NCBI GenBank assembly: GCA_030611765.1
Contig: JAUWPE010000010.1
Span: 1-39,235 of the forward strand
Origin: Candidatus Cloacimonadota bacterium
Lineage (GTDB): Bacteria > Cloacimonadota > Cloacimonadia > JGIOTU-2
DNA length: 39,235 nucleotides
Direction of reading: 5' to 3'
Below, piece after piece: positions 3,062-27,102 of this stretch. The notes under the pieces are model-generated. The model worked only from the letters and a program-made list of their open reading frames with translations. It did not search any database and had not been told where the DNA came from. Numbering within the stretch: the stretch's first letter is position 1; the number at the start of each line of letters is the position of its first letter. The translations under genes were made by a program, and so were the position numbers.

Positions 3062-3316
3062 ATGTATATAATATCAAGATATGTCATTATTATTTATTGC
3101 ATACTTATTATGGGATCATGCTCTAACACCTATCAGAAATTTAGGGTTTCTGTTACAGAAGAGATAGAATTGTGGGACAACAACGTGGCAGGAAAAGCTC
3201 AAGCCCTAAAAAGTGATTATTTATTAGTGTACCGTGGTTTTGAACCATTTTATGCAATAATTAAAATTAATGATGGAAAAATGGAAGAAGTCGCAATATT
3301 TGGTAGGTTACATTAA
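3062..3316 (+). CDS. Short putative lipoprotein, possibly truncated
   Basis: ATG 3062 has an excellent ribosome binding site (AAGGAGG just upstream). The 84-residue product starts with a hydrophobic stretch ending ILIMGSC, a lipobox-like cleavage site with Cys20 as the acylated residue. The remaining ~64 residues are soluble, with short beta-prone segments (YLLVYRGFEPFYAIIKIND). It lies 12 nt after the metalloprotease gene, so the pair is probably one operon. Its last ~50 nt overlap the beginning of the surface-protein 3' remnant in another frame, which suggests that the original C-terminus was lost at a recombination junction near 3300. I do not recognise a family. Confidence 0.55.
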   Translation: MYIISRYVIIIYCILIMGSCSNTYQKFRVSVTEEIELWDNNVAGKAQALKSDYLLVYRGFEPFYAIIKINDGKMEEVAIFGRLH

Positions 3317-4136
3317 CTTAGATAATCTGCAATTGTTGGTCGCTGATGTAAGTCTTGATTCTACTGTCTCAGCTTTGGACGCAACTATGATTCTACAATA
3401 TGGAGTTGGAATTATTGACACTTTGCCCTATCAGCCGGGATCATCCTACATAGCTAATGGTGATATAACAATGGAGGATCAAGTATATACCGGCGATCCC
3501 ATTGATGTGCCGATAATAATCACAAATGCAGAAAATATTTTTTCTTTCGAGGGTGTAATTCATTTTGACCCTGAATGTTTAACATTATCTGACGTTTATT
3601 GGTCTGAATATTTGGATGGTTTTTATATATGGACAGATGTTGAGTGTGGTGAATTTAAACTCGTAGTATCTGGAACTTTGCCATATGAGGAATACGGCGT
3701 GATGGCAACAATTAGATTTTATCCTAAAGATGGATTTAATACTAATGATTCAACAGTTGTATGTTTCGAAAATCTAAGATGGAATGAAAATGATATTATG
3801 CATAATGTTGCAACATCAATTATTACAAATAATTATGGAGCTAACAATCCTCAAGAACCAGAATTTATACTTCGCCAAAATAGTCCCAATCCATTTGCAT
3901 ATAACACAAAAATCCAATACTCGATGCCTTTGGGAAGCGCTGTTTCTCTGAAAATATATAATATAAAGGGTGAACTTATTGTTGATCTGGTTAATGAATT
4001 CAAAAACAAGGGTTCATATGATGTTGTCTGGGATGGTAGAGATAAATACGGTAATAAAGCTGTTAACGGGATTTATTTCTATAAATTTATTAGTGGCGAC
4101 TCAGAGATTATAAAAAGGATGATACTGCTTAGATAG
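3270..4136 (+). pseudogene. 3' remnant of a surface protein: dockerin-like, cohesin-like and T9SS-type sorting domains
   Basis: The open frame runs from ATG 3270 (no ribosome binding site, inside the lipoprotein gene) to TAG 4136. Homologous-looking sequence begins near 3309. The first part (VADVSLDSTVSALDATMILQ) resembles a dockerin calcium-binding repeat. Next comes a ~120-residue beta domain of cohesin type (IDVPIIITNAENIFSFEGVIHFDPE, abbreviated here). The last ~85 residues are a FlgD-like/type A sorting tail: NSPNPFAYNTKI, LKIYNIKGELI, WDGRDKYGNKAVNGIYFYK, ending KRMILLR. That tail is used in FCB bacteria to export and anchor proteins through type IX secretion. There is no signal peptide on this piece, so it could not be exported as it stands. 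The 1351-1608 piece supplies the kind of N-terminus it lacks. Confidence 0.7.
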
Positions 4137-4168: not shown

Positions 4169-4963
4169 TTACAATTTAAAAATGGACTTCAGTTTATTTT
4201 TCAGTGATCCGGATTTTTTCCTTTCATCGAAATAACCTTCAAAATTATGAATGAGGGGTTCGTTATTAAGAATTCTCTTTGGGTTTTCATAAAAAAGGAT
4301 TTGTGCAATTGCTTCAGAATGATTTGAGGCGACAAAATCATAAGCATCTTTCATAAGTATTGGACGTTTTTTTAGACCATGCACGTCCGACGCAATAAGG
4401 TGAACGCATCCGATATTGAGCATTTTTAATGCGAGGTCTCTCACTGCGTTTCCATACACTCCGAGAATACTTCCGCTGTTCATTTGAATATATATTTCTC
4501 TATTTACGATCGTAAGCAGGTAGTCGATATTGTTCATAAAAGGTGAAAATCTCTCTGCATGCGCTATAATTGGTCGAAATCCTTCTTGCTGAAAGTTAAA
4601 AAGGATCTCTTCAAAATTGTCTGGAAAACGTTGCAGTTCAGTTTCAATCAGAATATAATTACTCTGTGCTAGTGTAAGGTTTTCTCTTTTGACTTTGCTT
4701 ATCACATCGGGTTCACAATAGAGTTCTGCGCCGGGATGTATTTTAATACTAAGCTCCCGCTCCTCAATAATATCTTGCACTTCAATAAGCTTTCTGTCAA
4801 TTATACTGCGAGTATTTTCATACACGCCGGAAATGATATGCGGTGTGGCGACAAGTTCTGTTACTCCTTGATTGGCAAGTGCTTGTAATATCTCAAAGCT
4901 CTCGAATATATCCTGTGCCCCATCATCGATACCGGGAAGCACATGTGTATGAATGTCGATCAT
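4169..4963 (-). CDS. PHP-domain phosphatase, CpsB/CapC (YwqE) family
   Basis: 264 residues, the normal length for manganese-dependent PHP tyrosine phosphatases of the CpsB/YwqE type. The metal ligands are visible: MIDIHTHVLPGIDDGA at the N-terminus (HxH plus DD), ATPH, GAELYCEP, HAERF, and ASDVHG near the C-terminus. Known members remove phosphate from tyrosine kinases that control capsule or exopolysaccharide export. No such kinase or polysaccharide cluster is in this window. Instead, the gene starts 5 nt after the GGGP synthase stop, without its own clear ribosome binding site, as the last gene of the prenyl-lipid operon. That context makes a role in lipid phosphate removal possible, but this is inference. 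Confidence 0.88.
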   Translation of the reverse strand: MIDIHTHVLPGIDDGAQDIFESFEILQALANQGVTELVATPHIISGVYENTRSIIDRKLIEVQDIIEERELSIKIHPGAELYCEPDVISKVKRENLTLAQSNYILIETELQRFPDNFEEILFNFQQEGFRPIIAHAERFSPFMNNIDYLLTIVNREIYIQMNSGSILGVYGNAVRDLALKMLNIGCVHLIASDVHGLKKRPILMKDAYDFVASNHSEAIAQILFYENPKRILNNEPLIHNFEGYFDERKKSGSLKNKLKSIFKL

Positions 4964-4968
4964 ATCAG

Positions 4969-5715
4969 CTATGAATGAATTGCGTCTGCAAATTCTTTAA
5001 TAAGATCGGTCTGATTGTTCTTTTCAATGGCAGTGCCGATCACTATAAAATCTGCGCCTGCCGATACTTTTTCTCTGGCTTCTTCAGGAGTTCTTATACC
5101 ACCCCCGATGATCATTGGAATGGAAATATTTTCTTTAACCTTCTTGATCATTTCTGTTGGGACTGACTGTTTTGCTCCGCTTCCAGCATCAAAGAAGATA
5201 ACCTTCATGCCAAGATATTGAGCTGCAAGTGCATGCGAAACTGCAATGTCATATTTAGTTCTTGGAATTGGCAGACTATTGCTCATAAACTGTACTGAAG
5301 TGAGTGAACCGGATTCGATAAGGAAGTATCCTGTAGGAATTGCTTCGACCTCGTATTTTTTGATAAGAGGTGCTGTCCGAACCTGCTCTCCGATAAGCAA
5401 TTGAGGATTTCTGCTGCTCATCATACTTAGGAAGAGGATCGCATCGGCATAAGGGGAAACAAAATTGAATATGCCAGGGAATACAAGCACCGGTATTGTT
5501 ACTTGTTTTTTTATGACCCTCACAGTTTCATTAAAATTATTTTTGACCATCAAGCTGCCGCCAAGCAGAATTACATCTACACCATTGAGTTGGCATTTTT
5601 CAGCAAGCTTTGCAGATTCTACAGGATCTTGCTTGTCAGGATCAATAAGACAAAAGAAGCCGGCTTTTTTCTTACTTTTAATTGAATATAAAAATTGTAA
5701 TATGTTATCTTTCAT
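4969..5715 (-). CDS. Geranylgeranylglyceryl phosphate synthase (GGGPS, group II-like)
   Basis: Joins GGPP to sn-glycerol-1-phosphate, making the first ether bond of archaeal-type membrane lipids. I count 248 residues from ATG 5715, which overlaps the UbiA stop as ATGA and follows GGGTGG; an in-frame ATG at 5727 lacks such a site. This is a TIM-barrel: LIDPDK (23-28) for glycerol phosphate, LGGS (51-54), FPG (79-81), GYFLIESG (129-136), FDAGSGA (175-181) and the phosphate-binding GGGIRTPEEA (204-213). The segment FLSMMSSRNPQLLIGEQV matches group II enzymes of Bacteroidetes and some methanogens, which are geranylgeranyl-specific, more than Bacillus PcrB (heptaprenyl). It sits between a UbiA prenyltransferase and a PHP phosphatase, downstream of a prenyl synthase, as expected for the pathway. 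Confidence 0.92.
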   Translation of the reverse strand: MKDNILQFLYSIKSKKKAGFFCLIDPDKQDPVESAKLAEKCQLNGVDVILLGGSLMVKNNFNETVRVIKKQVTIPVLVFPGIFNFVSPYADAILFLSMMSSRNPQLLIGEQVRTAPLIKKYEVEAIPTGYFLIESGSLTSVQFMSNSLPIPRTKYDIAVSHALAAQYLGMKVIFFDAGSGAKQSVPTEMIKKVKENISIPMIIGGGIRTPEEAREKVSAGADFIVIGTAIEKNNQTDLIKEFADAIHS

Positions 5716-6548
5716 TGTGCCACCCATAAAATAATTAAAAATAGAAGCATGTGTACTTTCATAAAACTTTCCGAATATTTTGCTGTTTTTGTGGTTGTCT
5801 TAATTAAAAGTATTATCAAATCAATTAGAAGCAAAAATGCAATAGCAATCAATAATAAGATGAAGAATGTTAAGGAATAAAATCCAGGATAACACCAAAT
5901 AATTGTTGCTGTGAATCCTATCCAGAAGAGCAGTGAGAGCAGAAGTGTTTTTTTGTCACCCCACAAAAGCGGAAGAGTTTTTGCGTCAGCAGAACTGTCG
6001 CCATTTTTGTCTTCTATATCTTTAACGAGTTCTCTTATCATAGAATAGAAAAATGCACATAACGCTACAAAGAACGCATTTCTGAGATTGTTTGTAATAA
6101 AGCTGCCAAACAGAAAGGTGGAAGCAGTCACGAAGGCGACAAGAAGATTTCCCCAGAAATGTATTCTTTTACTTTTCATTGCGTAAACATATAGCAGGAA
6201 TGAATTTAAAGCAGCGATCGCGATCATCCACAGATTTCGTAAAAAGATACTAATAATTATTCCCGTAATAAAGAGACAAATCGCATAATATTTTGCCTTT
6301 CTGGGAGAAATCATACCTGAAGGTAAAACTCTTTCTTTCCGATTGATCATATCGATTGTATAATCATAGTAATCATTGATCACATAACCTCCTCCTGAGA
6401 TAAGTGCTGCTGCAATGCCTGCAAGAAGGGGATAAAAGAGCGGATATGCGGTCACTTTGTAGTAGGCGCCGAAGAGGACTGCGATCAAAACAAACAGAAA
6501 ATTCAGTGGTCTGAGGATGCGAATATATGCCAGGAAGCTTTGTATCAC
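5712..6548 (-). CDS. UbiA-family prenyltransferase, probable digeranylgeranylglyceryl phosphate synthase
   Basis: 278 residues with eight to nine predicted membrane helices. Both aspartate-rich motifs that bind Mg-diphosphate are intact: NDYYDYTIDMIN (58-69) and the RELVKDIEDKNGD segment (172-184), followed by TLP. Family members move a prenyl group onto an acceptor: quinone precursors, chlorophyllide, heme, or GGGP in archaea. The neighbours, a prenyl diphosphate synthase upstream and GGGP synthase downstream with a 4-nt overlap, make the DGGGP synthase role (second ether bond) the best reading. The start is GTG 6548, sharing one base with the TAG of the upstream gene (TAGTG). No ubiquinone or menaquinone genes are nearby to suggest the alternative. 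Confidence 0.85.
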   Translation of the reverse strand: MIQSFLAYIRILRPLNFLFVLIAVLFGAYYKVTAYPLFYPLLAGIAAALISGGGYVINDYYDYTIDMINRKERVLPSGMISPRKAKYYAICLFITGIIISIFLRNLWMIAIAALNSFLLYVYAMKSKRIHFWGNLLVAFVTASTFLFGSFITNNLRNAFFVALCAFFYSMIRELVKDIEDKNGDSSADAKTLPLLWGDKKTLLLSLLFWIGFTATIIWCYPGFYSLTFFILLLIAIAFLLLIDLIILLIKTTTKTAKYSESFMKVHMLLFLIILWVAQ

Positions 6549-7438
6549 TAGGGAATTCTGTCATGAATACGTTCTACAATTTCAAGGAGAACGTTATTAT
6601 TTGGTATGTATTTGATGATATTCTGTGCGTCATAAATGAGTTTTAGAGCTTGTCGCTTTGATTCTTCAATACCAAGAAGTGTAGGATAGGTGACTTTTTC
6701 ATTGCGCTGATCTTCACCAGATTCCTTGTCGAGTAGGTCGTCTGCTCCAACTTCATCGAGAATATCATCGATAACCTGATATGCAAGTCCGATATTCAGT
6801 GCAAAGTCACTTAACGCATTGGTTATCTGCTCTGTGGCATTTGCCAAAATACATGCGCAACGCTCAGCCGCACGGAGAAGAGCACCTGTTTTTTTAAGAT
6901 GAATATCTCTCAATATATGCAGTTTAACTCTTTTCTGTGAAGAAGTAATATCAACTACCTGTCCGCCGATCATACCTCTTGTGGATGCAGCTTCGATGAG
7001 CTCTTCAAGGCATTGGATAGCTTTTTTGCTGTTGCGAAGTTTGAGAACTGTTTCGAATCCTTTTGTCATGAGCGCATCGCCGGCAAGAATCGCAATGGCA
7101 TTACCGAATTTTTTATGGCAACTCGGTTTTCCGCGGCGTTCATCAGCGTTATCAATAAAAGGCAGATCGTCATGGACCAGCGAAGCAGTATGAAGCATTT
7201 CAATCGCACAGGCGACAGGAAGTGCCTGCTGTATAGCCCTTTTATCACGTCTGTTCACAAGCATCTCATAGGTCGCCAGCATCAACGTGGGACGGAGACG
7301 CTTACCTCCAGCCAACACAGAATATCTCATTGCACGATGAATTATCTCTGGTTTTGTATTATCCGAATCGAGATATTTCGCAAGAGCTTTATTGATAAGC
7401 TCTCTTCTATTTTCAAAATATTTATCTATTATCAACAA
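6548..7438 (-). CDS. Polyprenyl (probably geranylgeranyl) diphosphate synthase
   Basis: About 296 residues, IspA/CrtE-like trans-prenyl synthase that condenses IPP with allylic diphosphates in the cytosol. The GGKRLRP substrate loop lies at 44-50, the first aspartate-rich motif DDLPFID at 90-96 (DDx4D, bacterial type) and the second at 224-228 (DDILD). Residue -5 to the first motif is Ala85, where C15-making bacterial FPP synthases usually have Tyr; a small residue there lets the chain grow to C20 or longer. The start is uncertain: AGGAGG at 7440-7445 is followed by two TTG codons at 7438 and 7435, and the second is better spaced. It is first in the operon with UbiA and GGGPS and would supply their GGPP. 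Confidence 0.9.
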   Translation of the reverse strand: MLIIDKYFENRRELINKALAKYLDSDNTKPEIIHRAMRYSVLAGGKRLRPTLMLATYEMLVNRRDKRAIQQALPVACAIEMLHTASLVHDDLPFIDNADERRGKPSCHKKFGNAIAILAGDALMTKGFETVLKLRNSKKAIQCLEELIEAASTRGMIGGQVVDITSSQKRVKLHILRDIHLKKTGALLRAAERCACILANATEQITNALSDFALNIGLAYQVIDDILDEVGADDLLDKESGEDQRNEKVTYPTLLGIEESKRQALKLIYDAQNIIKYIPNNNVLLEIVERIHDRIP

Positions 7439-7459
7439 TCCTCCTGAGATAACGAACTT

Positions 7460-7493
7460 ATTGTAAAGTGCAAAACTCGCAAATTCTTGTCAA
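7460..7493 (-). promoter_or_regulatory. Candidate promoter of the ether-lipid operon
   Basis: On the minus strand, TTGACA (7493-7488) and TACAAT (7465-7460) lie upstream of the AGGAGG of the prenyl synthase gene. The spacing between them is 22 nt, longer than the 17 nt of ordinary sigma-70 promoters, so the pairing is tentative. The position, in the 87-nt gap after priA, is right. Confidence 0.3.
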
Positions 7494-7525
7494 CTTTTCC
7501 AGCTTCAATTGGAATTTAACTTCCT

Positions 7526-25863: not shown

Positions 25864-27102
25864 ATGTACGCCTATCTTGCGATAATTTCTATTCTCTCAT
25901 TCTTGCTTATTCCTTTTTTCATCTTTAAATATATTAAAAATCCCTATGAGTGGAGGCAGCGACTCGGATTTATAAATGTTCCCAGGCACAGTAAAAAGAC
26001 TATCTGGTTCCATGCTGCTTCAGTTGGGGAGATCAATGCGCTCATTCCCCTTATTGAGAAATTCATTGAATCAAACAAAAGTAGTTTTTTCGTTGTAATT
26101 TCTACAATGACCACAACCGGTCATGAGAGAGCAAAGGAGCTGGCTGCAAAGTATCCTGAAAATATATTCCCGATCCTGATTCCGCTGGATATTTCTTTCG
26201 CAGTAAAAAAAGCATTAAGAAAAATATCACCCGATGTTCTTGTTATTTCAGAAACGGAAATTTGGCCTGTTTTGATTCATTATGCCAACAAATATTCCGC
26301 AAAAATTCTTATCATCAACGGCAGGATATCCCATAAAACGGTAAAAAGCTACAAGAGATTTTGGTTTATTTTTAAAGATACTCTTAAAAATATTGATGCA
26401 TTCGGTGTTCAAACCAATGAAGATAAGCGAAAATTTGCAGAATTAACAGATAAAGCGATAGATGTAACCGGCAACCTGAAATTTGCCCTCCACCTACCTG
26501 ATTATGATATAGAAGCGATCAAAAGTAAATGGTATCTCACTTCACCTTTCATAATAACTTTTGGAAGCTCTCGTCCGGGCGAAGAACTCCTTGTGGCAGA
26601 GCTGTATCATTTTCTTAAAAACAAGAAAATCGATTTCCAGATTATTCTTGCTCCCAGACATTTACAACGGCTCGACGAGATCGAAAGACTTCTCTCTCAG
26701 AATAAAGTTAAATTCCAAAAGCTGTCTGAAGTATTTTCCCCAGCACCTCTTCTTCTTATTGACACAATGGGGGAGCTAATAAAGGGCTATGCGGTTTCTG
26801 ATGTTGTTTTGGTTGGAGGAAGCTTTTATGATTTTTCCGGTCACAATCCACTCGAACCTGCGTATTTTTCCAAGCCGATCATTATGGGACCCTATTATTC
26901 GAGCTGTAAGGATTCTGTTGCTGCACTGAGTTCTGCGGGAGCTATTCAAATAGTGGAAAGGGAGCATTTGCCAGGTGTAATTCTTGATTTGTATGACAAT
27001 CCTCAAAAAATAATTGAAATGGGAATGAAAGCAAAGAAGGTTATGGAGCAGAACGGGGATGCTCTTGAAAAAAACTTGCAAATGATCCAACGTTTTCTTT
27101 AA
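25864..27102 (+). CDS. waaA: 3-deoxy-D-manno-octulosonic acid (Kdo) transferase
   Basis: 412 residues, GT30 family with an N-terminal membrane segment (YLAIISILSFLLIPFFIFKY). Conserved pieces are the WFHAASVGEINAL stretch with its catalytic glutamate, VVISTMTTTGHERAKEL, SETEIWPVLI, INGRISHKT, and the C-terminal GGSFYDFSGHNPLEPA donor-binding region. It attaches Kdo to lipid A precursors at the cytosolic side of the inner membrane. It is therefore good evidence for a lipopolysaccharide-bearing outer membrane. ATG 25864 lies 5 nt past the pdxJ stop, so the two are co-transcribed. Whether it adds one or more Kdo units is not readable from sequence. Confidence 0.95.
   Translation: MYAYLAIISILSFLLIPFFIFKYIKNPYEWRQRLGFINVPRHSKKTIWFHAASVGEINALIPLIEKFIESNKSSFFVVISTMTTTGHERAKELAAKYPENIFPILIPLDISFAVKKALRKISPDVLVISETEIWPVLIHYANKYSAKILIINGRISHKTVKSYKRFWFIFKDTLKNIDAFGVQTNEDKRKFAELTDKAIDVTGNLKFALHLPDYDIEAIKSKWYLTSPFIITFGSSRPGEELLVAELYHFLKNKKIDFQIILAPRHLQRLDEIERLLSQNKVKFQKLSEVFSPAPLLLIDTMGELIKGYAVSDVVLVGGSFYDFSGHNPLEPAYFSKPIIMGPYYSSCKDSVAALSSAGAIQIVEREHLPGVILDLYDNPQKIIEMGMKAKKVMEQNGDALEKNLQMIQRFL

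Follow-up and report, generated by a model that had tools for sequence, protein, structure and literature searches.

The window analysed here, a stretch of 39,235 nucleotides, is one whole contig of a Candidatus Cloacimonadota MAG (2.23 Mb, 96% complete, 189 contigs). On its minus strand, within positions 4969-7438, it carries three ORFs that an earlier note on this DNA had described as genes for a prenyl diphosphate synthase, a UbiA-family prenyltransferase and a GGGP synthase (GGGPS), and their positions and profile matches agree with that description. The first gene of the cassette (6548-7438) encodes a polyprenyl diphosphate synthase that matches PF00348 with 203 bits, contains both Asp-rich motifs (DDLPFID and DDILD) and is a predicted GGPP synthase. 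It is followed by the gene of the UbiA-family protein (5712-6548; PF01040, 138 bits), assigned below as the DGGGP synthase (DGGGPS) for the second ether bond, and by that of the GGGPS for the first ether bond (4969-5727, with a possible start at 5715). The synthase starts with TTG and has AGGAGG immediately ahead; this ribosome-binding site is part of the intergenic leader (7439-7525, minus strand) that separates priA from the synthase gene. The synthase and UbiA genes overlap by 1 nt as noted earlier, and the 4-nt overlap given for UbiA and GGGPS holds if GGGPS starts at the ATG at 5715, which has GGGTGG ahead; with the upstream ATG at 5727 the overlap is 16 nt.

The proposed three-gene operon stands for these genes but overlooked a fourth one, a CpsB/CapC PHP-family phosphatase gene (4169-4963, minus strand; PF19567, 196 bits) with a conserved place in the locus and a putative role in the pathway. 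It begins 5 nt 3' of GGGPS, so that the locus appears as a four-gene operon in which the phosphatase is probably cotranscribed with the cassette. Scans of the region for promoters gave no match above chance, the terminator scan likewise stayed at chance level, and an Rfam search gave no match. Outside the operon, on the plus strand, lies waaA/kdtA (25864-27102), encoding a Kdo transferase of lipid A outer membranes: it matches PF04413 with 175 bits and has the NCBIfam Kdo-transferase models as best matches (281 bits, below their equivalog cut-offs), which bears out the waaA reported earlier. Two further plus-strand genes were observed, a flippase-like TIGR00374/LPG_synthase_TM gene (303-1295), whose relatives lie a few kb 3' of CpsB in other Cloacimonadota loci, and a gene whose product matches a T9SS type A sorting domain with 33 bits (3270-4136). 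The closest named relative is Candidatus Cloacimonadota NIOZ-UU3, with identities of 96% for the synthase, 90% for UbiA, 93% for GGGPS and 94% for CpsB and with the same gene order, GWxTD-YraN-priA-synthase-UbiA-GGGPS-CpsB.

The two ether-forming enzymes

The GGGPS matches the PcrB family with 150 bits and the NCBIfam GGGP equivalog model TIGR01769 with 220 bits, above its cut-off of 161.6, while the heptaprenylglyceryl-phosphate synthase model NF003197 gives only 33 bits, its cut-off being 260. As judged from these profiles it is of the GGGP type and far from the heptaprenyl type, in agreement with its earlier naming. In Bacillus, where AraM is present, the heptaprenylglyceryl-phosphate synthase PcrB is a homologous TIM-barrel prenyltransferase of a bacterium; the genome studied here differs in lacking AraM, in possessing a second prenylation enzyme and in the low NF003197 score. 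In one Cloacimonadota MAG the GGGPS frame is broken by one in-frame TAA (L050:3768-4532 and G076:C313:3813-4517), which is either an error or early decay.

The UbiA-family protein carries both Asp-rich motifs, which read NDYYDYTID and RELVKDIEDKNGD. Among solved structures, the M. jannaschii DGGGPS 6m31 is its best match (E = 7.9e-31). It scores 186 and 150 bits on the two DGGGPS models compared to 46 for UbiA, 49 for CyoE and 27 for MenA. Both DGGGPS scores remain under the trusted cut-offs of these equivalog models (186 vs 296 and 150 vs 353). The models derive from archaeal sequences, and similar scores (184 and 148 bits) are obtained for the NIOZ-UU3 enzyme that was active in E. coli. In a tree that included every outgroup, long branches limited the finer placement, so that smaller trees were built: here the protein falls with haloarchaeal DGGGPS and 6m31, split from an E. 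coli UbiA/CyoE outgroup with support values of 96/98, and one other outgroup set gave the same split with weak support. The trees do not fix the branching order of the Cloacimonadota, archaeal and Poribacterium proteins, but profiles, structure search and tree alike group UbiA with archaeal DGGGPS and apart from UbiA, MenA, CyoE and ChlG. The grouping by tree proposed in the earlier note thus came out in favour of its DGGGPS-type assignment, for which motifs, model scores and the 6m31 match speak as well.

Across the phylum, GGGPS was found in 67 of 125 genomes. The cassette-type UbiA is present in all 67 (counted in one of them from a contig-edge fragment only) and missing from the remaining 58, a few of which carry other, much lower-scoring UbiA proteins; a Fisher p-value for this co-occurrence ignores shared ancestry and is not to be taken at face value. 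The two genes lie within 400 nt of each other in 63 of the 67 genomes and on separate contigs in the remaining four.

Pathway genes outside the operon

The genome-wide search for a GGR, as proposed earlier, revealed an archaeal-type enzyme on contig 130 (TIGR02032, 228 bits over a cut-off of 158.8; catalytic domain PF22578, 97 bits) with 3oz2 as best structure (E = 3.6e-77). A GGR over the cut-off is present in every GGGPS-positive relative that is at least 87% complete. The genome furthermore encodes CdsA and four PlsY-type genes, and a PgsA-like ORF (L146:484-1035) was named from its sequence. No PF13685 match over the cut-off, i.e., no G1P dehydrogenase EgsA/AraM, was found in the genome or its family by a search whose control was positive in 13 of 14 genomes, and no CarS was found in the genome with a control positive in four of four archaeal genomes; the absence of these genes, noted earlier for the window, therefore extends to the genome-wide search. 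A weak match on contig 31 was considered as a G1P dehydrogenase candidate and rejected, as this gene, which has a DegT-type aminotransferase as its neighbour, encodes a classical Fe-ADH and not EgsA. Two observations together had been said to argue against archaeal-type lipids, a UbiA that groups with quinone or heme prenyltransferases and a genome with no source of G1P; the latter was found in that EgsA/AraM was not detected, whereas UbiA groups with DGGGPS.

In the genomes inspected across the phylum, the gene of a CTP_transf_1-family membrane protein comes after GGR, and in most of them that of a dolichyl-phosphate-mannose-synthase-like glycosyltransferase is next. The three genes are contiguous in G084, and in the family of the window thi genes separate GGR from the CTP_transf_1/glycosyltransferase pair. 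The CTP_transf_1-family protein has about 200-220 amino acids (e.g., L145:12350-13009, L158:6754-7368 and L176:3276-3899), its gene directly adjoins GGR in G084 and G108, and it is a candidate for a lipid kinase or a CarS substitute.

The prenyl synthase, the phosphatase and a family without GGGPS

The genome encodes two polyprenyl synthases. At position -5 of the first Asp-rich motif the cassette synthase has Ala, where E. coli IspA and the other synthase of the genome have Tyr, and this suggests a product longer than FPP; the enzyme also scores 304 bits on a general FPP-synthase model, above the cut-off of 275. In the GGGPS-negative sister family f3, the synthase gene lies directly beside CpsB and UbiA-GGGPS is absent in seven of seven genomes examined. 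In all seven, the third Asp of motif 1 and the DDxxD pattern of motif 2 have disappeared from the synthase, and a GGR over the cut-off was found in none of them. That the synthase lost its motifs where GGGPS, the cassette UbiA and GGR are gone suggests that the cassette synthase is dedicated to the ether-lipid pathway as its GGPP supplier, with which the Ala at position -5 agrees, and that f3 lost the pathway as a whole. Because the GGGPS-CpsB adjacency occurs in other phyla too, the pattern more likely reflects a loss in f3 than a gain elsewhere; as f3 is one clade, the loss may have been a single evolutionary event. The synthase homologues of f3 (L148-L154), full-length in seven of seven, are likely repurposed, non-catalytic proteins.

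The CpsB protein has intact PHP metal-site motifs and a basic C-terminal tail. Known CpsB proteins are tyrosine phosphatases, which is also how the PF19567 family is described. GGGPS is paired with CpsB in seven of seven named Cloacimonadota loci, in 9 of 29 named loci of other non-Bacteroidota lineages with sufficient downstream sequence and in none of 41 Bacteroidota loci. The paired CpsB invariably lies immediately 3' of GGGPS on the same strand, and the adjacency was found in Cloacimonadota, KSB1, Calditrichota, Latescibacterota and Eisenbacteria. A role of CpsB in the lipid pathway is possible.

Relation to the published pathway and interpretation

The pathway was described in 2020 for NIOZ-UU3, a MAG from the Black Sea, in which the GGGPS/DGGGPS pair was found co-localised and its transcripts were detected in the water column (Villanueva et al., 2020; PMC7852524). 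It was reported that purified NIOZ-UU3 GGGPS forms GGGP with G1P and with G3P as well, and that E. coli expressing GGGPS and DGGGPS makes PG-archaeol; the activities of orthologues about 90-93% identical to the two enzymes studied here were thus shown in vitro and in E. coli only. For the published MAGs, EgsA/AraM and CarS were reported as missing and GGR as present (PMC7852524). In genes, order, missing EgsA/AraM and CarS and presence of GGR, the window genome shows no substantial difference to what is described there for NIOZ-UU3; the main text of that paper is silent on the CpsB gene and on a dedicated synthase in the operon. Since this near-identical pathway was described, the reading of the window cassette is supported and already published. 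In comparison with the archaeal GGGPS/DGGGPS pathway (M. jannaschii 6m31), the ether-forming enzymes and the reductase (3oz2) are homologous; unlike there, EgsA and CarS are absent and bacterial ester-lipid genes and waaA coexist with the cassette.

It was stated that co-localisation of the pair in bacteria seems restricted to Ca. Cloacimonetes (PMC7852524), a statement that may need widening, as a Poribacterium genome (L070, Ca. Poribacteria Arabian9_MAG_50) carries UbiA-GGR-GGGPS in one stretch. Its GGR homologue (L070:4786-5979), located between a DGGGPS-like UbiA and GGGPS, contains an in-frame TGA exactly at a conserved Cys codon (PVR-TGA-AEG compared to PVRCAEG in the others), and a strong hairpin similar to a bacterial SECIS lies about 16 nt 3' of the TGA (33 nt, -12 kcal/mol, z = -4.3). 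This is possibly a selenocysteine GGR and otherwise an error or a pseudogene.

With high confidence, the locus is the archaeal-type ether-lipid operon of Cloacimonadota, with an unsaturated diether as predicted product that GGR would saturate and that would receive its head group via CdsA/PgsA. The cassette synthase would supply GGPP, which GGGPS would join with glycerol phosphate to form the monoether, and UbiA would add the second chain, resulting in the unsaturated diether phosphate. GGR would then saturate the chains, and, as no CarS is present, the bacterial CdsA and PgsA are predicted to attach the head group, following Villanueva et al. (2020; PMC7852524). Because the same cell keeps the enzymes for ester lipids and lipid A, either a mixed membrane or an ether lipid in minor amounts would be the expected outcome. 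Against this reading count the missing EgsA/AraM and CarS, the pass of the synthase on the general FPP-synthase model and the UbiA scores under the DGGGPS cut-offs. The earlier proposal that an FCB bacterium with lipid A carries a cassette for archaeal-type ether lipids is hence upheld by profiles, UbiA tree and NIOZ-UU3 orthologues, and has been published for the group (PMC7852524).

It might be argued that UbiA is a quinone or heme prenyltransferase located by chance beside GGGPS and that only the monoether is made, as in Bacillus, given that membership in the UbiA family is broad and that the protein does not reach the trusted DGGGPS cut-offs. This is very improbable and was rejected: the scores on the DGGGPS models far exceed those on UbiA, CyoE and MenA, the tree places the protein with DGGGPS, co-occurrence with GGGPS is perfect and accompanied by adjacency, and the NIOZ-UU3 protein, 90% identical, acted as DGGGPS in E. 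coli. Moreover, it is the only UbiA of its genome, in which MqnA/D-type menaquinone genes were looked for and not found. A binning or assembly artefact that carries archaeal DNA could be suspected in a MAG of 189 contigs. The cassette, however, is embedded in a 39 kb contig together with the bacterial genes priA, yraN and dnaE, its gene order is the same in NIOZ-UU3, the cassette is conserved in many independent MAGs, and the NIOZ scaffold was resequenced from Black Sea water (PMC7852524); with this conserved synteny, contamination was rejected as vanishingly unlikely.

A different end of the pathway would result if CpsB were a working pathway phosphatase, e.g., for GGGP or DGGGP, the product then being a neutral or re-phosphorylated diether and not one derived from CDP-archaeol. 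The recurrence of the GGGPS-CpsB adjacency in five lineages, even where UbiA is not adjacent, the intact metal site and basic tail, the absence of CarS and the CTP_transf_1-family protein linked to GGR would fit this role, while the activity of known CpsB proteins as tyrosine phosphatases counts against it. As CpsB survives in f3 without GGGPS, UbiA or GGR, this role of the phosphatase is regarded as a rival to the CdsA/PgsA route, and a quite improbable one. Rather unlikely, too, is a broader version, a dedicated module of GGPP synthase, GGGPS, DGGGPS, GGR, CTP_transf_1 protein and CpsB that would finish the ether lipid without CarS, using either a phosphatase plus a kinase or a glycosyl head group, and whose joint loss in the GGGPS-free family would have left the motif-less synthase behind.

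The core claim, archaeal-type ether-lipid genes in Cloacimonadota, is thus known since 2020 (PMC7852524), and the present analysis adds evidence suggesting that one bacterial family lost the whole pathway together. Such a unit-wise loss allows families that have the pathway to be compared with a family that lacks it, as in a natural experiment, and new candidates for the head-group step come from the genes clustered with GGR. Bacteria able to make both membrane types bear directly on how Bacteria and Archaea came to differ in their lipids.
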